Shown piece after piece: positions 16,857 to 62,680 of a stretch of 64,000 nt of DNA. The notes beneath the pieces are model-generated. The model did no database searches. It was not told where the DNA came from and was given only the letters and a program-made list of their open reading frames with translations. The DNA comes from Polytrichum commune (Eukaryota > Streptophyta > Polytrichopsida > Polytrichales > Polytrichaceae): contig OX485807.1 of assembly GCA_950295325.1 (NCBI GenBank), positions 33,758,440 to 33,822,439 of the forward strand, given 5' to 3'. How positions within the stretch are numbered: position 1 is the first letter of the stretch; each line of letters begins with the position of its first letter. The position numbers and the translations under genes are program-made.

Positions 16857-18160
16857 GTACTTAGGAACCCTCTAACAAAATATGGTCAACTTACAAGGAA
16901 CCACTCCTCTTTTCAAAGCTGATCACTTGTCCAAGAGCAGAAGGAGCATTCATAGTTCGTCACAATGTTTCATCCATAGAGACGCCATACCATCCATAAA
17001 TCCTCAAATTTTGTTCATGAGTTGGTTGATTATGACTATTGACAAACTCGAGCATGTGAATGACTCCTTAATACTACATGCACTTTGGTTGCCACATGCG
17101 TGATAGAGTGTACTTAGGAACCCTCAAACAAAATATAGTCAGCTTACAATGAACCACCCCTCTTTCTAGAACCGATCACTCATCCAAGAGCACAAGGAGC
17201 ATTCAAAATTCGTCACAACGTTTCATCCATAGAGAAACCATACCATAAATCCTCAAAATTTGTCCGTGAGCTGGTCGATTATGACTATTGACAAATTCGA
17301 GCATGTGAATGACTCTTTAATACCACATGCACTTTGGTTGACATACGCGTGATAGAATGTACTTAGGAACCCTCAAACAAAATATGACTAGCTTACAATG
17401 AACCACCCCTCTTTCCATAGCCAATCACTCATCCAAGAGCAGAAGGAGCATTCAAAATCCGTCACAACGTCTCATCCATAGAGACTCCATACCATCCATA
17501 AATCCTCAATTTTTTTGGTCAGCTAGTCAATTATGACTATTGACAAACCCGAGCATGTGAACGACTCCTTAAATACCACATGCACCTTGGTTGCCACATG
17601 CGTGATAGAGCGTACTTAGGAACCCTCAAACAAAATATGATTAGCTTACAATGAACCACCCCTCTTCCCAAAACCAATCACTCATCCAAGAGCACAAGGA
17701 GCATTCAGAATTTGTCACAACATTTCATCCATAAAGACGTTGTACCCCATTCATAAACCCTCGAAACTTGTCGGCGAGCTGGTCGATTATGACTATTGAC
17801 CAGCTCCAGTAGGTGAAATGACTCGCCACACCCGTGGCTTTATCATCCACTCTCCTCTCATTGGTTATCTAGTCCACAACCACCATATTAGGAACCCTCG
17901 AACAAAATATGATTAGCTTATAATGAACCACCCCTCTTTCCAGAACCAATCACTCATCCAAGAGCACAAGGAGCATTCAGAATTCGTCATAACATTTCAT
18001 CCATAAAGACGCCGTACCCCATTCACCAACCCTCAAATCTTGTCGGCAAGCTGGTCGAGTATGACTGTTGACCAACCCCAGCAGGTGCAATGACTTGCCA
18101 CACCCGTGGCTTTATCATCCACTCTCCTCTCATTGGTTATGTAGTCCACAACCACCGTAT
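16857..18160. repeat. Tandem array, about 250-bp units, five units with a switched spacer at the end
   Basis: GTACTTAGGAACCCTC recurs at about 16857, 17110, 17360 and 17611, and a shorter TTAGGAACCCTC at 17888. Each is followed by AACCACCCCTCTTTCC-like and CATCCAAGAGCA-like phrases. In the last two units the segment before the next unit is replaced by a different block (CGCCACACCCGTGGCTTTAT..., about 17825 and 18100). The array is therefore a chimera of two unit types. Confidence 0.88.
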
Positions 18161-18253
18161 TTATTATCATTTAGTAGTCAACTCGGGCTAGTCACCGAAC
18201 TCAATGAATTTATGGCAGACGAAGACTTCCCCAAATAAATCCTTGGGCCATGC

Positions 18254-35700: not shown

Positions 35701-37147
35701 TCTTGCAAGCAATGTTCCTTAAAGACCACTGGTTTTCACACAAACACAAGTGGACACAAAAAAGTGGTCACAATGATGGTGAACATACCTCTGACATAGC
35801 AAGAACCTCAAGAGCTTCATGGTAATTACCCTGCTCAAGTAGGCTCCGGGCCTTTGAGTGTAACATAAGCCCCATAACAAGTGCCCTGCCATGTGGTGAA
35901 TTTTTTTGTATAAGTAGAAAGGACTGTCACCGAAAGAAATTTAAGCTCACAACCCCTAAATTCAACTACTGGACAAGATAGTAGACAAGGATTCCACCAA
36001 GTCCTGATGACTGTCAAGCATAACACTGAATACAGCTTACATTTGAACTGACCCTGAATGAAGAAATCTGGATAAACCCAATGTTATTTTGACCTGCAAC
36101 AGTTATGATGTTAAAGCTGAGTATTGGGTCAACCTGCGATCAGTATCGGAGTTGAATATCAGCTTCTCTCCATTCTGATTTTCCAATTGGAGATCAAAGT
36201 CGTCCGAAGGATACTCACCATCATTGCTTCTCTTTGCCATTGCATCAACTGCTGCCCTGATTCAAATAAATAAAAAGATCACTGAGGTTCAGTGTAAAGA
36301 ATAAGGAAATAAAATCATTCTCTTGCTAGTTTGAAGTCTTGCAAGGTCTATAACGTCCATACAAGCATTTCGTTTCTGTTCAAATCACCACTGGAAATGA
36401 ACTCACTTCTGACAATCACTGGCTATTATGAACTCAAGAGTCATTTCAAGGAGTCGCTCATCCCAGGAGAGAAGAAATTGAGAGTAAAAATCGTACTGCC
36501 CCTTCATCAAGTGGAATCTTTCTCCCAAGTATTTACATTCTCAGCCGGAGAGGAATTGGTTCTATTGCAGGAAAAAATAAGATCTACTACAGACTTGTTG
36601 ATTCATTTTTCCAAATCCAAAAGCTTCTGGGGTACTAAACCCTTCAAGAAGTAAGGAACTGCGCAACCGCAGTCCATGGAAAAAGAAAAAAAGAAAAAGA
36701 AAAAAAGCAAGCAATAGTCCAGTGGTGTTTAACCGGACTAGTGACTAACCAGACATTATTTGAAACTGGAGATTAATAGTGGATTTGGAGTTTTGTTGCT
36801 CACTTGATGCGGGTGAGCCGCTCCACACGCTCCTGCTCCAAATTGGCAGCATTCGGTTGCTGTGCAGACGTCACCCTTGTCAGCAAAAGCTTCGAATTCG
36901 CGCCAATCCCTGCTTCACGCAAGCTTTTTGACAATCCTGTGGGGGTGTCACCCTTCAGGATTTTTCCTGCACAAATCAATTTCATGGCATCCATTGCGAT
37001 GCCCGATTGCCTTGAAACCTCACTCTGCAGCTTCCCCACCGTCCACTCGTCCAATGGCACCTCCAAAGTACCTGACCATGCGCCGGCAACTCGCACTTTT
37101 ACACTATGGCAGCTCGGCCCCGCAGCCATCACCCTCGTATCCGCCAT
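29785..37147 (-). CDS. NUB1: NUB1-like protein (NEDD8 ultimate buster 1 homologue), complete, 11 exons
   Basis: NUB1 binds NEDD8/RUB and ubiquitin-like conjugates and delivers them to the 26S proteasome (family knowledge). Exons: 37147-36804, 36256-36134, 35885-35789, 35410-35375, 35200-35013, 34333-34231, 34015-33834, 32819-32742, 32016-31881, 31185-31101 and 30110-29785. All have GT-AG ends with matching phase, summing to 1698 bp (565 aa), close to the Arabidopsis protein. Domains: N-terminal ubiquitin-like fold (about residues 10-90), a helical middle with LLQIDTVWCLFMLRDIERLA and LELLEGVVAYHSGQ, UBA 1 (about 300-340, MGFSMKEARRAL), a second UBA-like module (about 365-428), UBA 3 (about 440-475, LMSMGFSKDKAKKAL), then an acidic tail GDPLAEYDIEVDKEGNAI. 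Exon 4 is a 36-bp micro-exon. Introns carry MITEs and a 5S-like relic. The gene looks intact. Confidence 0.95.
30437..30557 (-). pseudogene. Degenerate 5S rRNA-like sequence in NUB1 intron 10
   Basis: On the minus strand the stretch follows plant 5S rRNA in order. The internal promoter box C region is clear (complement reads GGTCACCCATCTGAGT, cf. GGATGGGTGACC), as are the box A side (GCAGCTTAATCTCGGAGTT, cf. AACTCCGAAGTTAAGC) and the 3' end GGTGCACC. Several mismatches make it a pseudogene or a 5S-derived SINE. The adjoining 30300-30430 segment could be a SINE body, but I could not show this. Confidence 0.68.
30575..30847. mobile_element. MITE family W, right half, in NUB1 intron 10
   Basis: GAGGTGGGCTTCATGCGAAA, CACATAGGACTCCATGTAGG and AATGGTCACAAGCCC phrases match the right half of 25071-25664. 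It ends GTGTCCC followed by TAA. The left half is absent; the 5S-like relic lies directly beside the break. Confidence 0.72.
31525..31818 (+). mobile_element. MITE family E variant in NUB1 intron 9
   Basis: The core CCCAATTGTGTTCACTCTTG, GTGTCTTTTTGGTGTCCGTT and AAATACAGGTGTTCCAGTTA is shared with 46569-46850 (inverted) and a fragment at 28095. It differs from the main family E at the outer ends (GTGACCACATAAGGCCC before ACATACCTTA). Confidence 0.65.
33170..33534 (+). mobile_element. MITE family E in NUB1 intron 7
   Basis: It starts GGGTCTTAAATGGTTACTTT and ends AGTAACCAAATTAGGCACGT followed by CTACCTTA. It is a near full-length match of 49172-49525 in the same orientation. Confidence 0.78.
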
Positions 37148-38893
37148 AGCCTTAAATTTATTATAAAAATAAATAAAAATAAAAACTCCCTCAATGAAAT
37201 CTCCAAGGAATTTGCAAATGCCTTGTCGGCACGAATTATATTCCAAATTTCTGGGTCGTTCAAAAAAACTTCGCTACACCTAAGCCCACAACCCACAACA
37301 TCACCACAGATCCTTCAATTGTAGGTCAAAAAACAACCATCAATCATCACATGAAAAACTAAACGAAGAAAGAATACCTACGAGCAAGTACGTAAGTAAG
37401 TAAGGTGGGAGATTGGGCTTTGTGTTCACGAAGATGCTTGTTGATGCTTTTTGAAGAGCACATATTTTGTTGATGCCCCTAAACAACCTAAAAATCATCA
37501 GAATGATGTGCTGTAGTAATAACACAACAGTTAATCGGTGTACAGAATGGAAATTTCCAACTGTTTCGGACAGTGTGACGAGGTAGATTAAACACTTGCT
37601 GCAATGCAACCTCCCATTTACAATGGTTGCCAATTTAGGGTTTCAAAAAGAAACTAGGGTTTTCGGTAATTCTGTGGCGAAGCAAGTTGACCACGGTTGG
37701 CAACTCCAATGTAATTGCCAACTGACAAATTCGTGCTATGGTTCCGAGGGAAATTACATTACAATCCCCAGCAGGTGCTGCAATCGCTTCCGAAAATGCA
37801 AAGCATGCAATTTAAGGGCACATTCTTCACCGTGATTCAACCAACGAAGGTTTTTCTAATCACAATAATAACGCGATCCCCAAACCATAAACCTTGGGTT
37901 TGTACCCTCCAACAGAGTTCCTAAAACCGAAGTAACCTTTTGCAACACAATTTAGGACACACACAAACACATAAAAGCAGGGGCTGTTACCAATTCGGAA
38001 AACAACACATGCACCCACATACTTGAAAGGAATCCTGGTGGAGAAGAAGAACGTTAAAATTCCAAATTCACTTCGATGGGTTACAGGATTGAAAATTCAG
38101 CCAACACTCACAAACTACACAACAAACCCATCACAATTTTTTCCTGACCTGCACTGCATGTAAGCTTAGCACAAACTTAGCACAGTTTTTGCTTACCAGA
38201 TGGCCAAGAGAGGTGCAGTATTGGCACAATTCGTGTGTCCCACGCTCTGTTCCTTGAGAATCCTTGAAAGCTGTCTGTAAATTGCAGCAGCACACATATG
38301 AGCGACATGCATAAGTTAGCTATGGAGAGGAGATGCAGATCAGCGAAGTTGATGGGATGAGCAACTTGAAGCGCAAGTAATAATCACTTTCATATTTGTC
38401 TGTATTGTGGTGTGAACGAGTCAAACAGAGACTCTTCCCTGCTCCTTCCTTTCCTCTTTGTCAAACATACTGTCACTCTCTCTCTCTCTCTCTTAACTTA
38501 TTGGTGGACTGACTTACCCTCACATTACTTAGAAGAGAGCGAATTATTGTATATGGGCATACCTCTCATCCATCCAACATAAAAATACATAAAAAATTAA
38601 CCCCTGTATGTTTGTTGCCGATTCATCTCCAATGATCTTGAATAGACTAATTTAGGATCTGTTGAAGTTATTTATGGTGAACTAAAAAGTTATTGAACTA
38701 AAAAGTTATTGAATCAACTAAAAAGTAACAATCTCAAAGTTGCATACTTTTTCAGGGTTTTTATGTTGGATGAGAAGTACGCTCGTATATGATAATTTCC
38801 TCCCTCCCATGACTAGGGCTACAGCTCATGCCAAACCACATGGACTCCACTTTGTCGAGCCATGACCCCATCATATATTTACAAACTTTCAGG
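37148..38893. other. NUB1 5' flank and intergenic
   Basis: No coding exon is recognised. It probably holds the NUB1 leader and promoter (37148-37400 is AC-rich). It contains a (TC)n microsatellite at 38474-38494. A stretch at 38530-38800 has repeated AACTAAAAAGTTATTGAA phrases. Confidence 0.45.
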
Positions 38894-46400: not shown

Positions 46401-48844
46401 TGTATAGACAGACAGACAAACACAGTGTATGTTTTTTTATTACAGTAACTGTAAGTAGGTCATCTGCTTGAGGCATTATTCAGGCTTAAACTCAAAGCAG
46501 GTGCCTAGGGATTGTACACAGGGCAATTCTTATTAATAAGTAGAAGCAAACCCAGTCGTACAAAAAACGATATGTGGGCCTTATGTGGTCACTCTCCTTA
46601 ACTCCACCTATGTACGAGTGGTAGATGACAAGGCTTGTAGTTAAGAATAGACACTAAAAAGAAATGTTTTACAATGAGATTGGACTATGTGCTCAAAATA
46701 TACACCATTCCTAGGTTCAAAAGTGAACATCGTCACAATTGGGAGCGCCAATGTGATGACTTCAAGAGAAACAGAGACTCTGAACTTTGACCTCTTATAA
46801 CCCTTGCATCTCAAGTCCCGCTTCCGATGAAAAACGAGATGACAATCTTCATGATTCATAAGAATTCCTGATCCGATCAACCTGTCAAATAGTACTACCT
46901 GTTTTGAAGCCATTAGGAGAAAGGTCCTCAGCTGCAATGAGAAAGTTCCCTGCAGCCGCATTGATGAGAATGTCCAGCCTGCCCAGCTGCTCCACCACAC
47001 TGTTCACCACCCGGATTGCATCTTCCTTGTTGCGCACATCACCTTCCATTCCTATGGCCTGCCATATACACCATGCAAACAATGTCAGGGTTTTAAAATT
47101 TCTTCCCGTCACACATCCTGTGCCTAGCTTTGGAAATGCACAAGGCCAAGTGACCCCAAAAACCCACAGAACGCAAACCGGGCTGTTGATACATTCTGAC
47201 AAGACATTCTGAGGCAATTGGCAAGGGCTTTGAGGAGCAACGCTTTCTACAAAAGCATTTTTTATGTCGCCTTCCATTCCTGTGGCCTACCATATACACC
47301 ATACATTGCCTGGGAGGGAAAAGAATTTACTTCCTTTGCTCAATTTGTGTCGAGTCTTCCTGTTCCTAGATTTGGAATTGCAAAAGAGCAAGTGATCTAA
47401 AAACGCACAGAATGCAAACTGGGATGTCGACACATTCTGAACCAAAAACTGAGGCAATTGGCAAGGGCTTTGAACCTCAGCACCCTGTGTCTAAAAAATA
47501 CTTCTTTTTCTTACCTTGTGCACATTTACCCACAAACAGATACAATCCAAGTTTCAGCCTCAAACAGCAATTTGTGCTGGGTTTCCCGTTCCTAAGACTG
47601 GAAGTGTTCAAGAGCAAGTCACTCAAAACTGCATAGAATACAACTGGGATGTCAACGCATTCTAAACAAAATTCTCAGGTCATCGACAAGGGCTTTGAAC
47701 CTCAACACCCTCTTTCTACAGAACCATTATTGTGCTTACTTTGTGCACATTTATTCACATGGACATACTATTCAATGGGAGGGATAGCGGTGGCGCAATC
47801 AGGTGAGAAATTCCAGCCTAACAGAGCAAATTTTCCTAGGAAACCACGGAATGCAAACTGGGTTGTCGATACATTCTGATAATTATTCTGAGGTTATATC
47901 GACAGGAGCTTTGAACCTCAGCACCCTGTGTCTACAGAAGCCATTATTGTGCTTACTTTGTGCACATTTGCTCACATGGACGTACGACGAATCCGAGGTA
48001 GGGATAGCGGTGGCGCCATCAGCTGAGAAATTCCAGACTCAAAAAAAAGCAGCCTGTTTCCAGCTTAGCAACTCCCCAAGAGCAAGTGACCCAAAATCCC
48101 CACAGTATGTAAAATGGGCTGTCGACACATTCTGAACAAAAATTCTGATGCAAACAACAAGGGCTTCGAACCTCAGCACCCTATTTCTAGTTCCATCGAC
48201 AAGAGCTTTGAACCTCAGAACCCTGTTTCTCGAGAAGCATCATTGCTTTTCTTACTTTATGCACATTTGCTCACATGCACATACGATCAATCCGAGGTAG
48301 GGATAGTGGTGGTGCAATCATCTGAGAAATGTCAGACTCTAAAAGAAATTTGTCCTTGGAAACCACAGAATGCAAACTGGGATGTCGAACATGTTAAAAC
48401 AACAATTCTAATTCCATCGACAAGAGCTCTGAACCTCAGCACCCTGTTTCTCCAGAATCATCATTATTATCATTACTTTGCGCACATTTGCTCACATGGA
48501 CATACAATCAATCCCAGCTAGGGATAGTGATGGCGCCATCAACTGAGAAATTCCAGACTCAAAAAAAAATTAAGCACCCCCCAGCAAATTTCCCAAGAAG
48601 AGCATCACCAAAAAAGAGAACAACAACAACAACAACAACAACGAACCTTAATTCCAAGAGACTCGAGGTCCACCACAGCTGCGTCCAGCACATGTTTCCT
48701 GCGCCCCATGATGGCAATCTTGGCGCCATGGAGACCGAATTGAGTGGCAATCTCGAAGCCTATCCCCGATCCCCCACCTGTGATGAGCGCCACCTTCCCC
48801 TGCAACACAACATTCTTGAACGGAGACTCAAAGCTGCCATCCAT
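43429..48844 (-). CDS. DECR: Peroxisomal 2,4-dienoyl-CoA reductase (SDR family), complete, five exons
   Basis: It reduces 2,4-dienoyl-CoA with NADPH during peroxisomal beta-oxidation of unsaturated fatty acids. Exons: 48844-48647, 47058-46899, 46061-45892, 44910-44688 and 43589-43429. All have GT-AG ends with correct phase; 912 bp, 303 aa, against about 298 in Arabidopsis. Start ATG 48844 gives MDGSFESPFK. Features: Rossmann TGGGSGIG (22-29), NAAAGNF (99-105), ISATLHYAASWYQIHVSAAK with the conserved Lys at about 176 in place of a standard YxxxK, and APGPI. The C terminus is SKL, a canonical peroxisome signal (PTS1). Intron 1 (1.6 kb) is a tandem array that includes a duplicate of the exon-2 start; intron 4 holds an inverted MITE pair. 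The gene looks intact. Confidence 0.95.
43817..44198 (+). mobile_element. MITE family E in DECR intron 4, left member of an inverted pair
   Basis: It starts GAGGTAAGTGGCC and carries the family core (CATATAGGTACCCCCAAACA, TTCTTGGTGTTTG). It ends GGTCCACTTGGTGCTTACC. It faces a second copy 28 bases away. Confidence 0.72.
44226..44590 (-). mobile_element. MITE family E in DECR intron 4, right member of an inverted pair
   Basis: AGGTGCCTAATCGGTTACTT at the left and CATTTAAGCCCC at the right are the family TIRs in reverse. The interior CAACATAATTGGGGGGACC and AAATTATGAGGAAGGTGGC match other copies in the opposite orientation. Confidence 0.78.
45027..45328. mobile_element. MITE family V in DECR intron 3, TTA-flanked
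   Basis: The left GGTGGGTTCACATAGGGTCC and the right end GGCCCCTAGTGTAAGCCCACC form imperfect TIRs. TTA lies on both sides (45024-45026 and 45329-45331). 302 bp, non-coding, Tourist-like. Confidence 0.82.
46105..46415. mobile_element. MITE family V in DECR intron 2
   Basis: It shares TTTTGGACCCAAGGAGTGTA, CATATTCCCACCAAATCTTG and AGTTTGAGAAAGCAATCTTC phrases with 45027-45328 and 23128-23420. The ends GTGTAAGACCAA / GTTCCTTTACACTTG are worn TIRs. Confidence 0.65.
46569..46850 (-). mobile_element. MITE family E variant in DECR intron 2, inverted
   Basis: It starts TATGTGGGCCTTATGTGGTC and continues through GACACTAAAAAGAAATGTTT and GAACTTTGACCTCTTATAAC, the reverse complement of the NUB1-intron copy at 31525-31818. 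It ends close to the acceptor-distal side of DECR exon 2. Confidence 0.65.
47040..48560. repeat. Tandem repeat filling DECR intron 1, period about 215-265 bp, includes a copy of the exon-2 start
   Basis: CATTCTGA-type phrases after GTCGA(C/T)A recur near 47182, 47430, 47650, 47866, 48120 and 48385. AAGGGCTTTGAACCTCAGCA recurs near 47470, 47685, 47905, 48158 and 48425. The first unit overlaps exon 2: CTTCCATTCCTATGGCCTGC at 47043 is repeated as CTTCCATTCCTGTGGCCTAC at 47271, duplicating the acceptor and first codons of exon 2. Confidence 0.88.
48620..48642. repeat. (CAA)n microsatellite next to the DECR exon-1 donor
   Basis: Seven CAA triplets start 5 bases inside intron 1 from the exon-1 donor. 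On the gene strand this is a (TTG)n run. Confidence 0.85.
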
Positions 48845-50163: not shown

Positions 50164-50669
50164 AGCTAGCTGCCATAGTAGGTTGGAGGGGTTGATACAT
50201 CGAGTGAGTGGGGCTATGCGTTCGCCATGTCCCCCATGGGACTCATTATTAATGCATGAGTACAACATCATGAGTCATCTCCCCCGTCAGCTAGGGACTT
50301 GTGGTTGGGCAAGGTGTATATGTTCTATGTGAGGAGTTTTGTTACAAGTTGTAGCAAAGTGTCCTTAACGCGATATTAAACATTATGGGACTTTAGGATG
50401 ATTTTGGGACTTCTGGGATGTATGTGGGGAACTCAATGGGAACTCAATGGGAACTCATTGGGAACTCATTGGGAACTCGTGGACACTTTGGATGGACCTG
50501 CCCATGCGAGACAAATACTCTTTGCTTCCAATGGGCTTTTGCATAGACTGTCACACAACAGGAGGTTTGCACCCACAGTCCTCTTCATTGAAACACCAAT
50601 TCTATGCTAGGAGGCGTCCACTCGATTGAATATTGTGCTATAAATGCCTGTAACATGCCATAACTTAAA
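50164..50669. other. 3' flank of the 50.7-61.3 kb locus
   Basis: It contains the 12-bp minisatellite at 50427-50480. No gene is recognised; the transcript end of the neighbouring locus probably lies here. Confidence 0.4.
50427..50480. repeat. 12-bp minisatellite, 4-5 units
   Basis: GGGAACTCAATG is repeated four to five times with a C/T alternation (TCAATG, TCATTG). Confidence 0.92.
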
Positions 50670-51572
50670 TTACTCTACATTTGTGCCTTGGCTTTCGCAA
50701 ATTGTGGAGTCCTGTTTGGCCATGGACTCAAAGATGTTTGGCAAGTGAGGTTTGATTTCCCGAGATTGCTCCCATGTAACTTTCTCCATGTAAGCCAAGT
50801 CCGGTATTTTGCTCCCAAGATAGGCTTTTTGCTGAGAGTCAAAGCCAATGTGTTCTACCGCTAACACCAACATACAAAGGCGGTGTATGCGATCGCCGAG
50901 CAAAAGAGTGCCCGTATATCTCTGTAGAGCAGTTGTCATGGTCCTCTGTAGTCCCATAAACTCGCGCGTTACGTCATGGATATGCGATGCTAAGTAGTAA
51001 AATTCGTAATCAATGTTACGCTCCCCCATTGTGGGTTCCACTGGGTCTCCTTCATCATTCTGTGGATCGGCAATATGACAGGCTTCCAACAATGGTGTGA
51101 TTGGGAGGTTCTCATCCGTGATGTCATAGACATGGTTCAACATGTCTTCTGAATCACGGCGGAGTAAGTCATCTAAATGGGGCTCGATTGCTTGAGTAGC
51201 TTCCCACATATCGTTCTCTATTAAGTGCAACTCTGGGAGACGTTGTTGGAGTGCCTCCACTTGTGGGATGGTGAGCCCTATATCGGCACTGTATACCACC
51301 AATCTCCCAAGCATGTGTGCATCCATTCCAACCAAGCGGCATCCTTTATATCTATCTAAAGCAGTGGTCATAAATGATTGTAGTTGCATGAACCGTTCCA
51401 TGCACACATCAATATCTGAAGCTAAGTTGTTAAACTCGTCGTCCATACTCCTCCTTTCCATTGGGAGGCCTAACGGGCGTTCCAGTTCAGCTGTTTGCAT
51501 TCTCGCAATGACCTCCCCGAACCCAGTTGGCTGGGGAGCTGGGGGGGAACTGGCCGGGTTGGGAGGGGCATC
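50670..51572 (-). CDS. Terminal exon: protein of two tandem ~100-aa modules, unknown function
   Basis: A 301-codon exon, phase 0 at its acceptor (GTGTCAG/GATGCC) and ending in TAG at 50670. After a Pro-rich start it has two diverged copies of one module. Copy 1 runs from MDDEFNNLASDIDVCMERFM to AIEPHLDDLL; copy 2 from IDYEFYYLASHIHDVTREFM to EIKPHLPNIF. Both hold FM.LQ..MTTAL.RY.G, a helical pattern with conserved spacing. I do not recognise the family. It follows the other exons of the locus on the same strand in the same phase, so it is probably the C terminus of that protein; a separate gene is possible. Confidence 0.6.
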   Translation of the reverse strand, partial: DAPPNPASSPPAPQPTGFGEVIARMQTAELERPLGLPMERRSMDDEFNNLASDIDVCMERFMQLQSFMTTALDRYKGCRLVGMDAHMLGRLVVYSADIGLTIPQVEALQQRLPELHLIENDMWEATQAIEPHLDDLLRRDSEDMLNHVYDITDENLPITPLLEACHIADPQNDEGDPVEPTMGERNIDYEFYYLASHIHDVTREFMGLQRTMTTALQRYTGTLLLGDRIHRLCMLVLAVEHIGFDSQQKAYLGSKIPDLAYMEKVTWEQSREIKPHLPNIFESMAKQDSTICESQGTNVE

Positions 51573-52427
51573 CTGACACGGCATTGAATAGTACGAACAA
51601 GTGTGAATAACACTTCAACATGTGAGGTACAGATACCTATAACCGAAAACTTAAGCATTTCAACATAGCATATCTTGGAATATCAAGGAGGAGTTATTTT
51701 TTGTGCGTAGGAAAATAAGGTTCATGAATAATGACCTTTTTTTCAAAATTGATTGTGTAAAATTTCTTTGTGCGAAAGTCGGTCAAAGGCCATAACCAAC
51801 ACATAGCTTCACACATGACCGACAATATCTATGGGAAACAACTTCCCCTCCACAGTCATATTGTCCTCACGTTTTATATATATTCATAACGACTTCTAGT
51901 AAAGCCATGCGCGTTTATGAGCTACTCTACTTGTCGGTGATGGGATCGTTATCGGTTATAGGGTGTCTATACCTTAAGGGCGGATTTACATGGTGCACAC
52001 ATGGGTTGTTCCTCTGGGAGTGTGCATTCAAGACAAAGGCGCCCTACGCGTTGTGTCCAGTCACAGAAGAGTTTGGGCAGGACAAATAGGTTACATGAAG
52101 GGGCAACTTCCCATGAAGCAGTTATGCAAGACAGAACGAAAACATTCACATGGAGCTTCCGCCGTATCGTTTATGCACTACATGTTCCACCCATACATGG
52201 GGGAGTGCTCGATGATGGATTTACGAAGGACAAGCAAGAACCATACATTGGGTGCAAACAAGCATGTGGATATGGTAAGCAAAATGAGAGCATGGTTGAC
52301 ATGTGAACCGACTTGATATAAGACAATGCGTTGGGTATTGGGAGTGTCTGGCCACTTTTATATATTGAGTGTTGCACTAAATATTGTGTACACATATGAA
52401 TGCCTGCACAATTGGTCACGGGATTGT
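51573..52427. other. Intron-like gap between the last two exons of the locus
   Basis: Several short frames are open here, but none resembles the flanking exons and none is bounded by convincing splice sites in phase 0. Confidence 0.4.
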
Positions 52428-52901
52428 TTAACTTCTAGCATATTTAGGGTACAGACAAATCATCTGTCCATCACATTGATTGTGGTGTTTTGGGCCTTCC
52501 AAGGGGAGGCTAACTGTTTCCGGACCGTGCTCTGTGTGTGTCGCGAGGTCAGCCAACCCCACATGCAATAGATTGACGCCTCTTGAATTAGGACCTCTTG
52601 ACTCAATAAGCTCTATTTGATGCTCGCGGGTGGAAGGTGGTCCCAATGGTTTCATATTGAAGTCAGCACCTTGCGCGCTCAAAAGAATCGTTGGCACTGT
52701 GGTCGTGATAGGTTGTGGGTCATAAGTTTTGCCAATGCTCGCCAATCCCGCACGTAACATGTGAACACCCCTTGAGTTAGGGCCTCTTGATTCAATGAGG
52801 GAGATTTGGTGGTCGCGTGTAGAGATAGAGCGCAGGACGGGCAATGTTTCACAAGGGGATGCACAATCTTCCACTGCGGGTTCCATATTGAGATCAACAC
52901 C
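52428..52901 (-). CDS. Exon with duplicated ~60-aa motif, unknown function
   Basis: The acceptor GTGCAG/GGTGTTG at 52902 opens a phase-0 frame. It contains two copies of a motif: D(L/F)NM(E/K)P, then STR(D/E)HQI.LIESRGPNSR, then GV..L..GLA. The donor is not certain; the frame stops at 52428, and GT sites near 52480-52540 are possible. It resembles nothing I know. The upstream in-frame VYMCMG repeats come from the (CATACA)-rich minisatellite and are not counted as coding. Confidence 0.5.
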   Translation of the reverse strand, partial: GVDLNMEPAVEDCASPCETLPVLRSISTRDHQISLIESRGPNSRGVHMLRAGLASIGKTYDPQPITTTVPTILLSAQGADFNMKPLGPPSTREHQIELIESRGPNSRGVNLLHVGLADLATHTEHGPETVSLPLEGPKHHNQCDGQMICLYPKYARS

Positions 52902-52954
52902 CTGCACGGTGACAAAGTGATACGCATTTATTTGGCTTACTAATTTACATACAC

Positions 52955-53115
52955 TCGTGCATACATATACACTCATAGACACATATACACCCATACACAT
53001 ATACACATATGCACCCATACACATATACACATATACACCCATACACATATACACACACATATACAGATATACACCCATACACATATACACATATATACCC
53101 ATACATATATATGTT
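52955..53115. repeat. CATACACATATACAC minisatellite
   Basis: About ten 16-24 bp units of ACCCATACACATATACACAT type lie in an intron of the locus. Confidence 0.93.
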
Positions 53116-53344
53116 TGCAACTTATCATGATTTCATAACTCGCATATGCGGTAGCAACTGAACCAAAATTGCGTACACATGCACGTTCAAGCGAGTCTGG
53201 ATTTATACAGATTCAAGTATACTTATGCTAATGACCCTGAATTGGTAATGAAATGTGTGTTTGATATTACAATAACCTTTACACAATAACGTTGTCGAAA
53301 CAATAAATGACACTATAATAATAAATGACACAATAATAAATTAC

Positions 53345-53524
53345 CAGAGTTGATCCATCTGTCCATTGCACATGGTGCAAGTTGTTCTTCACTGGTGAAA
53401 CCTCCATTGGGTTGTGCGACTCTAAAACTTGTTTCGCCTCTATTGGACCGCGTGAGAGCCCCGAAGTGGGGCACGCAAAAGCTGATGGCGTGGAACTGGA
53501 TGGTGTGTACCCAGCAGGAGGAAG
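53345..53524 (-). CDS. Small Pro/Ser-rich exon of the 50.7-61.3 kb locus
   Basis: Sixty codons, phase 0 at both ends (TTCAG/CTTCCT and CTCTG/GTAATT). It reads LPPAGYTPSSSTPSAFACPT and continues SGLSRGPIEAKQVLE. It is probably a disordered linker between the phosphatase-like exon and the duplicated-motif exon. No domain is recognised. Confidence 0.5.
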
Positions 53525-53584
53525 CTGAAGATACCATAAAATACAATGTTACTAGACATACAATCCTACTTATTTCTTTGCTAC

Positions 53585-54355
53585 TTCTATTCGATCGATT
53601 TGCAACTTTTCTACAATTTCCGAGTCGGTTTCTTCAAGCCCGTTGGATTTCAAAACTACCACCTTGACTGCATCGTTATGCCGTACAGGTTGTTGCCCAA
53701 ACCTACGGCTGACCACAAATTCACGTGCGTCGGACATTGGTGAGTAGAACAATGATTGAAAGTAAGGAAGGAGGACCTTTGTCATGTTTGCGTCTTGCAC
53801 CCGATTGGATGTGAATGGGTTGGGAAAGATACCACACTCGTCCGGATTGCAAACAGATTTGTAAGGGCAATCGTCTACTAGAATGGTGTTGGAGGGTGCA
53901 GCTGTGATCCTTCCAGAATCGAAGGATATAGGCGGCCACCAAAACTTGTTGAGTAAACTTTTCAAAAACAAAAGAGCTTCTGGCTTCAAAGGGTTCATGA
54001 CGACATTGTTCCACATGTCCTTGAACAAGGTGCAATCCTCTTGGCCAAGTACTAATGCGGGTTTTGGGCCCCCGGCAAATAGATACTCCACCACAAGGTC
54101 TACAGTGGATTTTTTCATGGATGACCATATGCAAACATGGAACATGGAGGACATCCGCAACCAAAACACCTTGTATCCCAGTCTAGGTAGGACAACCTTG
54201 GGCCCTACCAAGGCCGGAGGTTTGTCCGGTGCTTTATCGTAAGTTATCTAAGTGGGCACAGTCACCATACCCGGGTTACGTCGGGAACAGTGGCAAAATA
54301 TGCCGTTTAAATCGAACACCACAATGAACCTTCGACTGGGTGTAGCAGCAGGCGC
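53585..54355 (-). CDS. FCP1/NIF-type (HAD-fold) phosphatase domain exon
   Basis: FCP1-homology phosphatases dephosphorylate phospho-Ser/Thr, classically on the RNA polymerase II tail. The exon is phase 0 at its acceptor (CGGCAG/GCGCCT); the proposed donor GAA/GTAGCA is weak. It reads FIVVFDLNGIFCHCS near the start, the HAD motif I position. Here the usual DxDxT(L/V) is DLNGI, as in many plant and protist FCP1-like proteins, so the second Asp is missing. Then come VFWLRMSSMFHVCIWSSMKK (motif II area, usually V.IWTS) and NTILVDDCPYKSVCNPDECG (motif III, DD). One in-frame TAG lies between motif I and motif II. It is likely catalytically weak or dead, or a pseudogene. Confidence 0.65.
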
Positions 54356-54448
54356 CTGCCGACATGAACCCACTGTGAGCTTTTGACATGTGCTACATGT
54401 AAATTAAACATAGAATGACCTCGCAAACCTAGGCATGATGGACTATAC

Positions 54449-54760
54449 CATTAAGTAGTTCATTGGGTAGTCCTCCAAACCACGTGTGGTATGGGCGAAC
54501 TCGAACGACAGGGAAAAATGGGCCACGATCAATACCTCGTACTATATTGGATTGAATTCCCATCGCTCAGAGTACCCTAGGGAAGGATCTTCGGGATACT
54601 TAGACATTAGTCTTTTAGCACACGCGATTATCATCTCCCTTGTGAAAACTTGGCAAGGTCTATTGATCTTTGGGTATGTGTCATCGTAAACAAATAGCTT
54701 ATCATAGACGACGTCTTTTGGTAGAGGCGCATCCAAAGGCGCTATCGAATGTTGTGGAGC
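54449..54760 (-). CDS. Exon N-terminal to the phosphatase domain, unknown function
   Basis: 104 codons, phase 0 at both ends (TTCAG/GCTCCA and TTAATG/GTATAG). It reads KDVVYDKLFVYDDTYPKINR and TREMIIACAKRLMSKYPEDP, then continues past one in-frame TAG to HTTRGLEDYPMNYLM. Its position suggests a domain that packs before the FCP1-like fold, but I recognise no family. Confidence 0.5.
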
Positions 54761-54876
54761 CTGAACCCAAAACTACGCGAATTTAAATAAATGGGGAGGT
54801 GAAAAGGTTGAAATAGACATATGTCAATCGAAACTAACGTGCCTTTTAACGAATGCATTGGATGGAATAAACTTAC

Positions 54877-55542
54877 TTTGACATGTGAAGGCACCACTTT
54901 TAGAAGGTCGGCAGGCCGTCTCTGATCGTCTTGGTTGTTGTGCGTCGTCCGGAAATCTTGGCAACTAACGTTGTTGAATACTGGATGGGGAGCCTTCTCG
55001 CCTTGTAGCCAACGTGTCAAATACCTCCTAACTGCTTGTGGAGCATTTATGGTGGCTTCTGGATTCGACGAGTCCAATGGGATAACATTGACAGCACTCG
55101 TCGATGTCGTCGCATGCGACTGTGGCTTTGTTTGAGGGCACTCCACGGGTGGAGTTGAAGCCTCTTCGTTGGCAACATCATCATCCACACCTTGCGGCGA
55201 TAGCTCGACAATCTCCAAAGGTGAGGGCTCAAGTGGAGGCTGTGCAGAATGTGGCACTTGGATAACTTCTTGAATGATGCCACTAATTGTAGAATTTGCC
55301 ACTTGTTTGATGCCAGTCGGCGAGAGTGCCATACGCGGCGATGGAACCTGAGCTTGCAGATGTTCTGGCGGTGACGGGGCCGTGGGTGGAGCGCGGGTGA
55401 CCACCGCTGCATCCGAAGTGTGTATGGGAACCACAATAGGCAAGGGGTTGATGTGCTCGTCGTCGATTGGGGTAAGTGACGTTTGAATAGACAAAATTGC
55501 AATCTGTGATGCATCCACTCGTTCTGGGTTGTGCAGGCAAGC
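54877..55542 (-). CDS. Pro/Ser/Thr-rich linker exon of the locus
   Basis: 222 codons in phase 0 (TTCACAG/GCTTGC to GTCAAA/GTAAGT, a strong donor). It is low-complexity and Pro-rich (PPTAPSPPEHL, PLEPSPLEIVELSP), ending with QAVRRYLTRWLQGEKAPHP. This reads as a disordered linker with one structured patch. There is no known domain. Confidence 0.55.
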
Positions 55543-56916
55543 CTGTGAATTGCAAGACATCATTAAGGACAATTGAATGCAAACTAGAAAGTACATGTGC
55601 TAGACAAAGGAATCCACTTTATTTATAATAAATGGTCGAACATATTGCATCTCCTCCCCACAAGGGAGGAGTTCCGGGTAATCAACACCCCTAACTCTAT
55701 TTATTCTACTCGTCCTAGTCCACTTTTAGCTTCAAGATGCCGCGCCATCACCAACTTGGATCAAACATCCAGGTGGAGATTCAGTCACTTGAACAGAAAA
55801 ACTTGCATACTGAAATGTTCACGGGGATCGAATACTTACACTGACCTCGGCCTTGTCGGAGGTGTCCATGGTTGTCGGTGCTGCATCCACGCAGGAGACA
55901 TTGTCGCAACCCTTGCTAGGTCCCTTAATAATCTTGCCAATTTTCGTTTCTAGCAAAGGTTACGAGCGCTAACCCTTCGCATACCGCCATGCTAATGGTT
56001 AGCTCCTCTTACCCCGGACCACATAGTTCATAGAAGGGGAACCAACCCTCCTACTTTGCTTTCGGGACTCACCCCTTAATCGGTAACCCATTTCTTTGAT
56101 GTGGACTTCCATCCATGGAAGTCCAATCCTATGTTGATCATCATGTTGCCGGAGCAACACTACAACAACCCGAACCATACTAGGCAACTATGGCCTCACA
56201 ATGGGCCAAAGCCCATGGAGGCCGTGCCGTTCGGCCTCGGGTGGGTGAGGCCACACCACCTCACCCATATAAGCCTCTAGGACTCTATGCGGGGCCCCTA
56301 CCCCACCGTCAACCAACCTCTTGTCTCTCTACCAAGAGTTGGGGCCAAGTGGACATTTTCCCTTAGCCGCTGGGCCTAGAAGCCCCCACAGCTTCAGACC
56401 ATCATAACTTCCTTGTATGATGTCTGATCATAACAACCAACCACTCCATCCTCATCTACGCTTCACGTAGATGCCGATGGACTCCTCACTTGCCCCATTC
56501 GGGCAAGTGGTGAGGAAGTTATGCCTGTTTGAACCTTGGCAGTCCCGGGAATCACTCCCAGGCACTGCTGTACCAGGGCGCTGTCCCGGGACAGCGCCCC
56601 ACTCAAATGGCCATAACTCCTAGCTCACACCTCCGATTGAGGTGTTCTTGAGCATTCTAGAATCACCACGCCATGAGCTACGCATAGCTCATGGCCTTAC
56701 CCTTGTGCCTCCTAGTGTCCGTGGGTGGGAGGCGTTCCCAACGCCCGGGGCCCTCACCCACACTAGGATCACTTGGGCCCTCTCACCAATGGCGCCACAA
56801 GTCCCGGGTGTCACTCCGGGGTCCCCCTTGTGCCCATGGTGTTTCGGGCACTCCTCATGGAGAGGTGCGCGACAGACATCCACTGCTTGCACGCCAACTG
56901 GGAGCGATGCGCCCAC
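55543..56916. other. GC-rich, hairpin-rich block in an intron of the locus
   Basis: The 56200-56880 part is clearly richer in GC than its surroundings. It is dense in short inverted repeats (GCGCTGTCCCGGGACAGCGC at 56579, CATGAGCTACGCATAGCTCATG at 56671, CTTGCCCCATTCGGGCAAG at 56490, CTACGCTTCACGTAG at 56456). No reading frame matches the flanking exons. It is probably an insertion, but I cannot name its family or find its ends. Confidence 0.5.
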
Positions 56917-57987
56917 CTGATCGTTCACCCTTTCGGGTTCGGCTGCACCGACTGCAACATCCACTGTGGGTGTTGGTGTCGGCACTTGTTGAGGGGGGGT
57001 ATTTTTTGCCAGGCCCAACGCTTCTTGGAGCAAGCCCGACAGCATGTTGGGCAGTGTGCTTCTCAAGATCCCCACAATCTTGTCTTCCAATACAGACTCC
57101 GCTATCACAGGCTCTGGAACCCGAGAACTATGTCTTTTCGTATGCCGGTCCTTGTGCTTGCCTCGCTTGGAGGCCTTGGATTTCGGGGCATTGGGCGGTG
57201 GCAGTTCTTCTTCGCTCTCAGACACAATTGACGCCGTGGAAGGCCGGGAGGTGGTTGCCACTTTGGGTGTGAGCTCAGCCGCATCACCTTCGGCCTCCTC
57301 TTGAACACGAGCCTGCTCATGTTCTCCTTGAGCCACCTCTCGTTCTTCTTGTGCTCCCTCGCAAGCCCCTTCTTGTGCGTCGTCAAGGCCCCCCTCGAGC
57401 TCCCCCTCGAGCGTTCCCTCAAACTCCTCATCACGGTCCGAGTACTCGGCATCTTGCTCTTCATTGGCATCTCCCTCGTGATCCTCGTCGCGATACTGGT
57501 CTTCGGCCGGGTCACCTTCCGCTAGAGAGGTGACATGCTCGTCCTCTTCAAATTCCAGGACCCTGCCGCGCATAGGTGAAGCGGACTGTGGTTGTGGCGA
57601 TTGTGTGTGAATGGATTCGCATTCATCCGATTGCGTATCCATATGGGCGCTTTCCCCTCTACTGGAGGCCTCCTCTGTATCATGTTCACTAGGCGCCTCT
57701 TTGTCGTCGTCGTCATCTTCGGGCTCCTCGTACTCGCCCTCGGATTCGTCTCTATCAACGTCCATGGCGTCGATGTCCAAACCGGGTGACGGATCTCGCG
57801 AGACATCCTCCAGCAACAGTGCAGGGGGTGCTTCTTGCTGAGGTTGAGGGTGGTCATCTCTGTCACCTGCAGCTTCATGGTCTTCTTGGTCATCTTGAAA
57901 GTCCACAGCCCGAACGTGATCTATCTTCTCGGGAAGCGTGTGCATGAAGCTAGAGTCCATGCACGAGAACACATGCTGTTCGTTCAT
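56917..57987 (-). CDS. Acidic low-complexity exon of the locus
   Basis: 357 codons, phase 0 at both ends (ATGCAG/ATGAAC to GATCAG/GTGGGC). The start MNEQHVFSCMDSSFMHTLPE may complete the preceding methylase-like fold. Then follows a strongly Glu/Asp-rich region (EEPEDDDDDKEAPSEHD) and a basic patch KASKRGKHKDRHTKRHSSR, a likely nuclear localisation signal. A helical stretch DKIVGILRSTLPNMLSGLLQ is near the end. Confidence 0.6.
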
Positions 57988-58065
57988 CTGCATACATGAA
58001 AAATATCAGAATAGATAAACAAGCCTGCGAATAAAAGCAAGGTTGCGGATGTTGTATGTACTCAC

Positions 58066-59454
58066 CAATGCGGCAACAATAGGCTTCAATCTGCCGAATA
58101 GATTTATCACAACTCCTCCCGAGCTTCCAAGGTTGCTGAGAAACGAGTTATAAACCTCCATTCGCAACTCGCCTCTGTTCGCTTCGTATGAAAGCTCCGA
58201 CCACTCCTTCGGGTTCACATTGTAACGCCGAGTTACAGGCGCTATCATGGGACATCGAAACTGCTTGTGGCGCGGGAGGATACTTCGGCAAGTGAGGAAG
58301 TCCACATAAAGAAGAGGGGTAGTCCTCAGCCAATCTACTTCCTTGTTGAAGGTTTGATCCTCAGTGTGACAAGGTAGATAAACTGACGGAACGTTCAGAA
58401 ACGTCCCCGGGTGCTTGCAAATCAAGGCGGAGATGAACTCTTCAGCCGCGGGGTGGTTGCGCAAATCGGACACAATCATCCAAGCGGGGATTTTCTTGAG
58501 GCCCGGGACCCAGACCGGGTCCGCAACATACTTCACCAAGGACTCGACCACCGACGATGATACTGGCTGATCGACACACCCCGGGATGAATCTAAAGTCG
58601 ATGAAGCCCCATGTAATGGTGAACTTCGAGAGCCAATCAGTGTCGACCTTGTCCTGATTAGGGATTACCAACTTCCGCTTCAGAGGATTATAATCTACAT
58701 ATCGAGTGATCACTTGTCCTTGACTCTCTTCTACCGGTGTTTGCAGCCACTCTTGCAACAAACGCAGGCATGCCGGGGTAGGGTCCAGTTTCTTGTAGTT
58801 CGGCAACCGCTTCTTATTTAACCAACCATCACCTGTAACCTGATAAAGCTTCACCCATTTGGCCTTCGTGATGCCATGGTCCCTCTTGAATTTGTCCCAA
58901 ACAGATCTATTAAGGCATTCATTGTCCTCCGAGTCCTTTCCCCAAATGCCAAGATCGTTTGGCTCATGTGCTGACAACTCTTGCAAAAGAATATTCTTCC
59001 ACTTCCTAAAATTACACCACGACTTCAAGGTCGTGACATCGTGGTTCTTTGTGGCACGGAGAGAGACTCTAGGAACCTCTTCGCCAGGCTTCACCTCGAG
59101 GATACGTCTCGCACACAGAAGATAGTCGGGCCGTGTTAGGCTTGCCATCACCCTGAAAGTTTCCATGGTCAATGGCTTACAAACATACGGCTTCTCCTCG
59201 AATGGTGTTGCCGATTTTTTCTTGTCGTGGCGGACTCGTTGTTTCTGTTGCGTGTCCAGGTATTCTTCTAAATAGGGGGAGCCTGGTTTGTCCGGGTTAA
59301 TAAGGGTCCATTTCTCGTGTCCTTGAAATACCTTCTTCCACATCCTCGAGGTCTCATCATCTGCCATGATGAGTGCCAGCTCGGCATTAAGGTCATTGTG
59401 GGTGATTCCTCTAGCAATGGCAGTAAATGAAGCCTCTATGCTTGTCGTGAAATT
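58066..59454 (-). CDS. Large exon with features of a degenerate N6/N4 DNA methylase domain
   Basis: 463 codons, phase 0 at both ends (TTGCAG/AATTTC to GCATTG/GTGAGT). No frame break. The C-terminal part reads MEVYNSFLSNLGSSGGVVIN, LFGRLKPIVAAL, continuing in the next exon as NEQHVFSCM. This has the layout of the last blocks of beta-class N6/N4 DNA methylases (G..VLD.F.G.G....AA......G.E.D). The glycine-rich AdoMet loop is worn and no DPPY/NPPW is readable, so activity is doubtful. The middle (WMIVSDLRNHPAAEEFISAL) is also compatible. The methylase link is my inference from pattern; the exon itself is well supported. Confidence 0.6.
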
Positions 59455-59510
59455 CTGCAATGGAGAAGTGTTAGAACACAAGTTGAAGTAACTATGAATG
59501 GAGGGTAGAA

Positions 59511-59832
59511 GCGAGGGAACTTCCTCTCGGCCGAGAGGAAGTTCCATGAATCCTCCCATCCCTCAATCAGGGCTCAAGGGATTGAGGGAGGCGAGGGAAC
59601 TTCCTCTCGGCCGAGTGGAAGTTCCATGAATCCTCCCATCCCTCAATCAGGGCTCAAGGGCTTGAGGGAGGCGAGGGAACTTCCTCTCGGCCGAGAGGAA
59701 GTTCCATGAATCCTCCCATCCCTCAATCAGGGCTCAAGGGCTTGAGGGAGGCGAGGGAACTTCCTCTCGGCCGAAAGGAAGTTCCCTCACCTTCCTCAAG
59801 CCCTTGAGCCTTGATTGAGGGATGGGAGAGGA
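59511..59832. repeat. 80-bp tandem array of palindromic units, closing in a ~120-bp palindrome
   Basis: GGAACTTCCTCTCGGCCGAG plus AGGAAGTTCC occurs at 59516, 59596, 59676 and 59756 with an exact 80-bp period. Between copies is a conserved spacer (CCTCCCATCCCTCAATCAGG, CTCAAGGGCTTGAGGGAGGC). After the fourth copy the spacer appears in reverse (CAAGCCCTTGAGCC, TTGAGGGATGGGAG), so about 59711-59832 is a near-perfect inverted repeat. The array sits in the first intron of the locus. Confidence 0.92.
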
Positions 59833-59979
59833 GTCTGCATGTGGGAGTGCAAAAATAAAAGTTGGAATGGGAGTGGGTGTATGAAAACTTATTCTTCATG
59901 CCTCCTTCATTTTGGGGTCTATAGTTATCCCCACAGCGTTGATCCGTTGTTTTGAGGGCCTCCCTAGTTTCACCCATAC

Positions 59980-61287
59980 CCTACGACAGTACATAATTTG
60001 TATTGTCCAAGTAGGAGTGAACTTGTTGAAAGAATTAGAGTTGTTTAGAGTATAGGAGAGACGAATTGTCATGCTTGGATCATTGGTCCAAACAATCGTA
60101 CAAGGCCAAATCTTCAATTTATCCTTGAGTGCTTGATCTGTATCCTTGTGCCCTATAATCTGCCTCGAAGCAGCCACGCTGTGTTGACCGTTGATGATCA
60201 CAAAATTGCCGTCCTTGATATCGTCCCAGGTCATTCATTCTCTCCATGTCTCATCCTTATTGAGTTTCGGCATGAGACATAGATTGTGATGGGGCCACGC
60301 TGGTGGGGTCTGTATAAGGTAGTTCTTCATGAGAGCTACTCCGGCATCATCCAATGGGCGAGTAACCTGATACGACTTTGCGCTCAACATCTTCTTTATG
60401 TGGACATGAAAAACTTTCTCGATACCGAAAGGATATAAGTGTCCAAATAATTGGACGAATTTCTTGCGGTCCGCTGCAGCTTCCTCCAGACTTGGTTCCT
60501 CGCCATGTGCGATGACTCTGCCCCTCTCTGTTGCGGTGAGCACTAGTGGAGTTTCTTCCGATGCATCCGCAGCCTTCGCCTTCTTAGGTTTTGTCTTCCG
60601 CTCCTCATCAATAGTCCTCTTTGAGGCCGGAGGTTTCCTTGCACCTGATGTCTCTTGGGGATGGCTCTGCATAATTGGCGTCGCGTTTGTAGGCGTCGCC
60701 AAGAGAACGAGTTCACCAGAAGCCTTCTTGGGCTTCTTTGCCACCTCTCTTGTTCCTTCAACATCTTGATCGCCGGGTTTCTGCTTCTTGTGTTTCTTCT
60801 TCTTACTCCCCTCATCATCAGTCCTAGATTTCAGAAGTGTCTCCGCTTGTTTCTTCTTTTGCGTCCTCAGAGCCTCCATTTCGTTCGCCTCTCTCGAATT
60901 GATATCACCTATTGCTTCAAGAAGGAAGTTAATTGCCTTCTTCGATACACCGGAGACCATCACTCTCTCCATCTCTTCTTTATCCGCAGGAGGAAGCATT
61001 TCGATTGATTGGGTGAATGGCTCCAGGTGAAATCTATGCCTTTTGCAGTCGATGGACAAAGTGCGTTCTTCGAGTCCTTCGAGCACCGTTACATTAAGCT
61101 GGTCGCGATCGCCGACCGATGCTAGAGTTATTGCGTTTCCTGGGTTTGGAATCCAATTTTTTCCTACCCTGTATGCGAGGGTTAGTTTTAACGGAGATTC
61201 CTTGTCCCTCCTGTGTACCTGAATTGACCAGTGTCTCAAGTGAGTGTCTTTTAATTCCCAATAGACACCCTTCTGCCTTATTTCCAT
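59980..61287 (-). CDS. First coding exon: basic region plus ParB-like domain
   Basis: 436 codons from ATG 61287, which has an in-frame stop upstream, to a phase-0 donor (AGG/GTATGG). Residues 1-110 are unrecognised; 150-240 are Lys-rich (GSKKKKHKKQKPGD, ERKTKPKKAKAAD), nuclear-signal-like. The last 100 residues contain GNFVIINGQHSVAASRQIIG, resembling the ParB/Srx-fold signature (hydrophobic-x-G-x-R/H-x-x-A-A), followed by a charged helix and PTWTIQIMYCRR. Prokaryotic ParB-like domains are often fused in front of DNA methylases, the same order as here. One in-frame TGA (60235-60237) interrupts the exon just before the ParB-like part, so this copy may be a pseudogene or start again at the ATG that follows. 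Confidence 0.6.
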
Positions 61288-61449
61288 TGTCCCAACAAGG
61301 TCTGTTCATAGCACTTCCTTGTCCATGTCACCTGCAAGACAAATTGAAATGGTTAGTATTTGTGGAATAAAGCAAGTTTGAGAGAGCTTGCACCTTGAGG
61401 CTATCGCGTACGTTGATAAATAGGGTTTACATAATGTGACGGATGAGTG

Positions 61450-61700
61450 TGCAAGGGAGAACTTCCTCTCGGTCGAGAGGAAGTTTTCCATTTCCTGCTG
61501 TATGTTGATAGGGGTGGATTGAAGTCTAGGGAGTGAGGGCTAGGAGAGGGTTAATAAGATGAGTGTGCAAGGGAAAACTTCCTCTCGGTCGAGAGGAAGT
61601 TTTCCCTCTCCTCAAGTCTGCGTGTGAGGGTTGGGAGGGGCTCTTAAAATGAGAGCGCAGGGGAAAACTTCCTCTCGCTCGAGAGGAAATTTTCCCTTTC
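61450..61700. repeat. Three palindromic units upstream of the locus start
   Basis: GGGAAAACTTCCTCTCG-NN-CGAGAGGAAGTTTTCCC-type palindromes lie at 61456, 61571 and 61661 with centre pairs GT, GT and CT. They are embedded in ~90-bp units with GAGTGTGCAAGGG or GAGAGCGCAGGGG lead-ins. Confidence 0.9.
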
Positions 61701-61955
61701 CTGCTGTCATGTTGATAGGGGTTTGTCATCAAATACCTAACCCACATCATTCTAAATTGATGGAAACAAAAAAAAAAAAAAAAACATGCATCCATTCATC
61801 CATATTTGATTTACTAACATAATATAGACTAATTAAACATTAAACCAGTCCCCACGCTCCCCATGAGTAGGGATTGATGAACAAACATCACATATCAGTT
61901 GTAAATAACAATGACACTCTTTTTCTTTATCATTTTCTTGAAGTCGAACTTGTAC

Positions 61956-62146
61956 CTTGCAAAGAGGGTTGAATTCAAGGCAAGGGAGTCGCAACTCGCG
62001 AAACTGTCTGAGATAACGAACCTGCCATTTTCCAACCACAAATCGCCAAAATCGATTAATAATGTATGAAGACGTTTGCATACCAAAGTAATTTTAGTCG
62101 CAAGCTCCATCAAAAACTTCTCTATTAAGCATTCATCACAGCACAT
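61956..62146 (-). CDS. Possible F-box-like or leader exon (low confidence)
   Basis: A frame from ATG 62146 to a GT donor (TTTGCAAG/GTACAAG) encodes CLIEKFLMELATKITLVCKR and LHTLLIDFGDLWLENG. The VCKR.H.L..D..LW pattern is like the second half of an F-box. It is short, lacks the usual LP start and is not in phase 0 with the downstream locus, so it may be unrelated or non-coding. Confidence 0.25.
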
Positions 62147-62329: not shown

Positions 62330-62680
62330 GTCAGTGTGTGAGGGTGTGGAGGGCTCCTAAAATGAGAGCCCAGGGGAGAACTTCCTCTCCATCGAGAGGA
62401 AGTTTTCACTCTCAAGTGTGAGTGTGAGGGTGTGGGGGCCTCTTGAAAATGAGAGCCCAGGGGAGAACTTCCTCTCGAGCGAGAGGAAGTTTTCACTCTC
62501 AAGTGTAAGTGTGAGGGTGTGGGGGCCTCTTGAAAATGAGAGCCCAGGGGAGAACTTCCTCTCGAGCGAGAGGAAGTTTTCCCCCTCCTCAAGTGTGAGT
62601 GTGAAGGTGGGGGGCTCTGAAAATGCAAACCCCCAGGGAAATCTTCCTCTCGCCCGAGAGGAAGTTTTCCCTCCCATCCT
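62330..62680. repeat. Four palindromic units in ~90-bp tandem array
   Basis: Palindromes AACTTCCTCTC-NNNN-GAGAGGAAGTT lie near 62373, 62462, 62550 and 62638. They are set in units with GTGAGTGTGAGGGTGTGGGG and AAATGAGAGCCCAGGGGAG lead-ins. It is the same family as 59511-59832 and 61450-61700 but with different spacer sequence. Confidence 0.92.

Follow-up and report, generated by a model that had tools for sequence, protein, structure and literature searches.

The locus at positions 50670-61287 of a stretch of Polytrichum commune contig OX485807.1 raises the question of what kind of gene nine minus-strand exons can represent. The whole stretch, of 64,000 nt, is called the window, and all counts given for the window refer to this single stretch; the exon analyses were carried out on the minus strand of 50400-62000. 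An earlier note had read the locus as a possible nuclear protein of more than 2,300 amino acids (aa), in which a ParB-like region, a methylase-like region and an FCP1-type phosphatase were joined. We prefer, with a probability of about 0.45, the reading that a multi-exon nuclear gene specific to a plant lineage, with an FCP1-like domain at its core, is present here as a copy that has decayed or is still decaying. The exons considered are the following.

59980-61287, minus strand: exon 1, with an ATG at 61287; the first part is Lys-rich and holds 350 open codons up to an in-frame TGA at 60235-60237.
Around and after the TGA at 60235-60237, minus strand: the part of exon 1 formerly called ParB-like, without ParB similarity.
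58066-59454, minus strand: exon 2, an open exon of 463 codons with no known domain and no methylase similarity.
56917-57987, minus strand: exon 3, an acidic open frame with a Lys/Arg-rich patch.
54877-55542, minus strand: exon 4, a Pro-rich open frame.
54449-54760, minus strand: exon 5, interrupted by a TAG at 54542-54544.
53585-54355, minus strand: exon 6, with a NIF/FCP1-type HAD phosphatase domain, a TAG at 54248-54250 and a weak donor.
53345-53524, minus strand: exon 7, of 60 codons.
52428-52901, minus strand: exon 8, the probable last coding exon, with two copies of a module of ~44 aa, ending in a TAA at 52428-52430.
50670-51572, minus strand: exon 9, with two copies of a module of ~104 aa, ending in a TAA; either a separate gene or a detached 3′ exon.

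These exons are real coding sequence. Seven stop-to-stop frames of at least 200 codons (518, 438, 356, 314, 285, 234, and 225) were found, all on the minus strand, while 200 dinucleotide-preserving shuffles held a mean of 0.1 such frames. The longest frame per shuffle had a median of 162 codons and reached 302 at most, so that each of the four longest real frames (518, 438, 356, and 314) is beyond anything seen in the shuffles; exon 2 sits in the first of these, and no open frame in the window is longer. The placement of the exons is thereby confirmed. A codon-use score, for which two lipoxygenase pieces and the remaining long exons served as training set, was compared over the six frames. The claimed frame was the best of six for exon 1 before its stop, exons 2, 3 and 4, exon 5 before its stop, exon 6 after its stop, and exons 7, 8 and 9.

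The domain around which the gene would be built lies in exon 6, and among the three domains that had been named it is the sole one supported. The piece after the stop matched the NIF profile PF03031 with 30.3 bits (E=3.9e-7), thereby passing the curated cut-off of 21.8 bits. When the piece before the stop was joined to it with an X at the stop, the match rose to 37.8 bits (E=1.9e-9) and covered profile positions 2-154 of 160, which indicates that the piece before the stop is part of the domain. Motif I (FDLNG, 54302-54316) and LVDDCPYK (53858-53881) enclose the TAG at 54248-54250. The signature of NIF phosphatases is DxDx(T/V), as given in an excerpt of PMC8346121 (PubMed Central, PMC), and motif I of exon 6, DLNGI, departs from it. 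A PDB sequence search with single exon 6 sequences returned no relative. In a working ancestor, long charged arms would have flanked the FCP1-like domain, and the DLNGI of motif I, in place of DxDx(T/V), suggests that the protein may have served as a phospho-binding scaffold or a weak phosphatase; we infer a pseudophosphatase role from this comparison of motifs.

Two further exons contain internally duplicated modules, as had been proposed. In exon 8, the two copies of ~44 aa start at 52823 and 52634 and align with a local score of 127 (maximum of 41 in 500 shuffles); in exon 9, the two copies of ~104 aa start at 51476 and 51044 and reach 164 (maximum of 50 in 500 shuffles). The ratio of nonsynonymous to synonymous differences per site (pN/pS) between copies, with silent sites saturated, was 0.24 over 32 codons in exon 8 (bootstrap 0.11-0.45) and 0.51 over 104 codons in exon 9 (0.40-0.66). 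The copies thus differ mostly at silent positions, from which it follows that both stretches encoded constrained protein after the duplication. A microsatellite-like array of 8-bp ATACACAT units (52949-53111) lies in the intron between exons 7 and 8, directly upstream of exon 8.

For the analysis of splice sites, approximate plant weight matrices were used. The eight claimed acceptors ranked 3, 5, 9, 12, 22, 24, 27, and 46 among 758 AG sites (exon 2, 9; exon 3, 5; exon 4, 22; exon 5, 3; exon 7, 27), and the seven claimed donors ranked 2, 6, 17, 18, 29, 43, and 257 among 636 GT sites (exon 1, at 59980, 17; exon 2, 43; exon 3, 18; exon 4, 6; exon 6, 257; exon 7, 2). Seven of the eight acceptors and six of the seven donors were the best-scoring sites within 60 nt, and random placements matched the claimed mean score in 12 of 5000 cases for acceptors and in 137 of 5000 for donors. 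Six of the seven claimed introns had pair scores of 13.0-17.3; the intron between exons 6 and 7 scored 7.7. All claimed splice sites are in phase 0 and most are strong, and to this extent the phase-0 junctions hold; however, the exon 6 donor is weak, exon 8 runs into its TAA without a good donor, and better-scoring sites exist in other phases (donors at 58532 in exon 2 and 55025 in exon 4, acceptors at 58024 near exon 3 and 51415 in exon 9). For exon 3, an alternative phase-0 donor at 56701 outscores the claimed one. Since exon 8 ends in a stop codon without a good donor, exon 9 may be separate and is not securely tied to exons 1-8. Exons 1-8 would accordingly form one minus-strand gene with mostly phase-0 introns, and exon 9 would belong to a gene next to it or be a 3′ piece that has become detached. 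One gene for exons 1-8 is plausible, and we tentatively favour it over two.

Three in-frame stops, overlooked in the earlier note like the stop that ends exon 8, interrupt the proposed exons: the TGA at 60235-60237 in exon 1 and the TAGs at 54542-54544 in exon 5 and 54248-54250 in exon 6. Together with the terminal stop of exon 8 they make a protein of more than 2,300 aa unreadable from the exons as proposed, and the claim of one open nine-exon frame falls. Under that exon model, a ribosome starting at the first ATG would halt after 350 codons, which makes it probable that the copy seen here is a pseudogene; a transcript, if any, would be expected to be removed by nonsense-mediated decay. The search for frame-keeping introns gave no plausible one for the removal of the exon 5 stop, and this stop is the firmest sign of decay, while those of exons 1 and 6 could fall in unrecognised introns. 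Of the multi-exon locus as first described, coding capacity, the FCP1/NIF domain and the duplicated 3′ modules are supported, but neither the open nine-exon frame nor the ParB-then-methylase order is.

Several points weigh against decay of a single gene. Frame-keeping introns could remove the stops of exon 1 (pair score of 10.8) and exon 6 (10.8, or up to 11.4), and the stops may also be sequencing or assembly errors. Three stops and no visible frameshift in ~2,358 codons amount to mild decay, and pN/pS tells of past, not present, function. No intact relative was observed either, in collections without plant genomes or transcripts. When the 66-nt intron model was compared with the same exon 6 stretch carrying an X, PF03031 scored 37.6 and 37.9 bits, respectively; with values this close, the profile is silent on whether the exon 6 stop is coding. 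In terms of codon use, the 84 codons after the exon 1 stop were in a near tie with another frame, the 35 codons before the exon 6 stop were outscored by four of the five other frames, and an antisense frame outscored the claimed one for the 31 codons after the exon 5 stop. The intron between exons 1 and 2 scored up to +0.11, equal to some exons. Because the short flanks of the stops score poorly and this intron scores like an exon, codon use is a blunt test here. The 1,374-bp gap between exons 3 and 4 and the weak exon 6 donor leave room for two genes.

The last of these points leads to the alternative that survives best, although we regard it as rather unlikely, namely that two or three adjacent genes were joined: exons 1-3 for a charged protein, exons 4-8 for an FCP1-like protein, and exon 9 for a protein of duplicated modules. 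Besides the 1,374-bp gap that separates exons 3 and 4, the end of exon 8 without a good donor and the stop codon of exon 9 itself are in favour of separate genes, as is an in-frame ATG at 51582-51584 just ahead of exon 9, read by eye as a possible start. Against a break after exon 3, however, the exon 3 donor and the exon 4 acceptor are strong and both in phase 0, and exon 3 is not directly followed by an in-frame stop, its frame extending to 56689. The stretch 55543-56916 itself (1.37 kb) is GC-rich above 56 kb and shows no clear coding frame beyond the extension of exon 3; it may be intronic, as one long intron, or else an insertion or a gap between genes.

A second alternative, which we judge improbable, is an intact gene in which the stops either arose as errors of sequencing or assembly or fall inside unrecognised introns. 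It would agree with the reading frame continuing on either side of each of the three stops and with the absence of any observed frameshift. Frame-keeping introns with moderate sites span two of the stops: 60367/60159 (207 nt) in exon 1, with a pair score of 10.8, and 54271/54204 (66 nt) in exon 6, also with 10.8, the best exon 6 pair of up to 800 nt scoring 11.4. Against the NIF profile, splicing out the exon 6 intron gives as good a fit as leaving it in. Six of the seven claimed introns, however, score above these pairs of 10.8, and for exon 5 the best frame-keeping pair scored 5.1. For calibration, the same kind of intron was sought at 96 positions inside stop-free exons: pairs of at least 10.8 were found at 19 of 96 within 250 nt and at 72 of 96 with introns of up to 800 nt, and pairs of at least 5.1 at 94 and at all 96, respectively. 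By their site scores, introns over the exon 1 and exon 6 stops are no better than chance, yet possible.

It is very doubtful that the locus is the protein gene of a transposable element. In-frame stops, repeats around the 5′ end and the lack of a library match for most exons would be in keeping with such an element, but no transposase, integrase or reverse-transcriptase match was found in the ten pieces scanned, and the search for exact inverted matches of at least 11 nt between 48.8-50.67 and 61.33-64 kb gave one of 11 nt and none longer.

The ParB and methylase identities were rejected at the sequence level by profile libraries, PDB, phage tblastn and hhalign. ParB and methylase models had no match to the exon 1 and exon 2 pieces in Pfam (E ≤ 10), NCBIfam, PADLOC (E ≤ 1) or PHROGs; for ParB PF02195 and, in exon 2, methylase PF01555, no profile match was obtained at E ≤ 10. 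A PDB sequence search with the exon 1 piece after the stop and exon 2 gave unrelated weak matches only (Hsp70, E 0.07; fibrinogen, E 0.4), and in phage tblastn the best values were E 0.7 for the exon 1 piece and 0.8 for exon 2, none of them convincing. Three weak candidates were set aside, all in exon 1: DUF4100 (13.9 bits at a cut-off of 27.9) and, in the piece after the stop, the unnamed phage family phrog_26561 (E 0.12) and the Hsp70 chains just mentioned as best match. Single-sequence AlphaFold2 models of both pieces had a mean predicted local distance difference test (pLDDT) value of 33.9 and 33.3, too low for use.

For hhalign, profiles were built from bacterial genomes: one of 19 ParB domains, one of those 19 together with ten ParB domains taken from longer proteins, one of the ten full-length proteins (fusion profile; nine with a methylase domain) and one of 19 methylase domains. 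ParB loci L012-L071 numbered 60, of which 19 entered the profiles; methylase loci L072-L101 numbered 30, of which 19 did so and the other 11 were kept as controls. From 20 further loci with a ParB match, ten were used for the fusion profile (nine of which match the methylase profile, L117 being the exception) and eight as positive controls, while L107 and L108 were left unused. The probability was 0.1-1.0% for the exon 1 piece and 0.1-3.3% for exon 2 (0.2% with the methylase profile), inside the range of 20 shuffles each. All eight ParB controls were detected (two ParB profiles, 95-99.9%; fusion profile, 88-98%), as were all 11 methylase controls at 99.4-100%; as all controls had been found via PF02195 or PF01555, they pose an easier task than would a eukaryotic relative that had diverged greatly, and a single diverged sequence can escape these tests. 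Neither the ParB-like region in exon 1 nor the methylase-like region in exon 2 was upheld, and, as the order of the two is unsupported, so at the sequence level is the ancient transfer of a ParB-methylase fusion from a prokaryote or phage.

A prokaryotic or phage-derived ParB-methylase unit merged with host exons is accordingly highly improbable, as the short ParB-box-like string IINGQHSVAASR after the stop in exon 1, a resemblance by eye only, is set against the lack of a match in Pfam, PHROGs, NCBIfam, PADLOC or PDB, the lack of a convincing phage match and hhalign values within the shuffle range. Intron 60367/60159, if real, would also take in this string. It is barely conceivable that exons 1-2 are a real but extremely diverged ParB- and methylase-like unit that became fixed in a plant lineage and was joined to an FCP1-type pseudophosphatase, with intact family members still working elsewhere in the genome.

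The setting of the locus looks like plant nuclear DNA by gene content. Profile searches placed two pieces of a minus-strand lipoxygenase (E 6.2e-17 and 2.4e-28) within 62-1683, and near 44.7 kb they identified a short-chain dehydrogenase (E 1.6e-13). An exon at 36803-37273 on the minus strand is ubiquitin-like, with 20.8 bits lying below the Pfam cut-off of 25.4. RNA families at the gathering threshold and tRNAs were searched across the window, and none were found. Other copies of the locus within the window were sought as well; beyond the locus itself and the duplicates in exons 8 and 9, the best E was 0.04. Viral contigs searched with exon 2, exon 6, the exon 1 piece and exon 9 as protein queries gave no relative, and titles of open-licence PMC literature pointed to none that deals with a gene of this kind.

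Several repeats were observed in and around the locus. A near-perfect palindrome of 30-36 nt, with the core CTTCCTCTCG NN CGAGAGGAAG, occurs eleven times (allowing up to 3 mismatches) at 59506-59790, 61448-61700, and 62367-62680, mostly in units of 80-90 bp; the copies were found within the window only in the first intron and the 5′ flank of the locus (0 in 100 shuffles) and could potentially form strong hairpins. Degenerate repeats with a spacing of ~220-260 bp (47039-48626) adjoin the dehydrogenase exons, and a tandem array of about five copies of a ~253/272-bp unit is present at 16851-18161.

The main use of these results is corrective: a prokaryotic DNA-modification fusion is unsupported, and the copy in the window has stop codons in the proposed exons. 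Intact relatives, if there are any, would be proteins of the FCP1 type whose catalytic motif is changed and whose long arms are otherwise unclassified. They would make up a lineage-specific branch within a family whose Arabidopsis members are already numerous; for that plant, an excerpt of PMC8774115 counts 16 SSP genes besides the CPL genes.

In comparison with known systems, the ten bacterial ParB-N6/N4-methylase proteins are like the locus only in the order that had been proposed for it, without detectable similarity in either part. Tim50-like NIF proteins share an imperfect catalytic motif with it, which is the one likeness considered here; according to an excerpt of PMC8346121, fungal Tim50 is without phosphatase activity for that reason. 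The NIF/FCP1-homology (SCP-like) HAD phosphatases of PF03031 differ from the locus, which has DLNGI as motif I, long unclassified exons on both sides and, unless an unrecognised intron removes it, a TAG after motif I; with these enzymes, however, it shares a near-full profile match when X is placed at the stop, and the DDCP motif.

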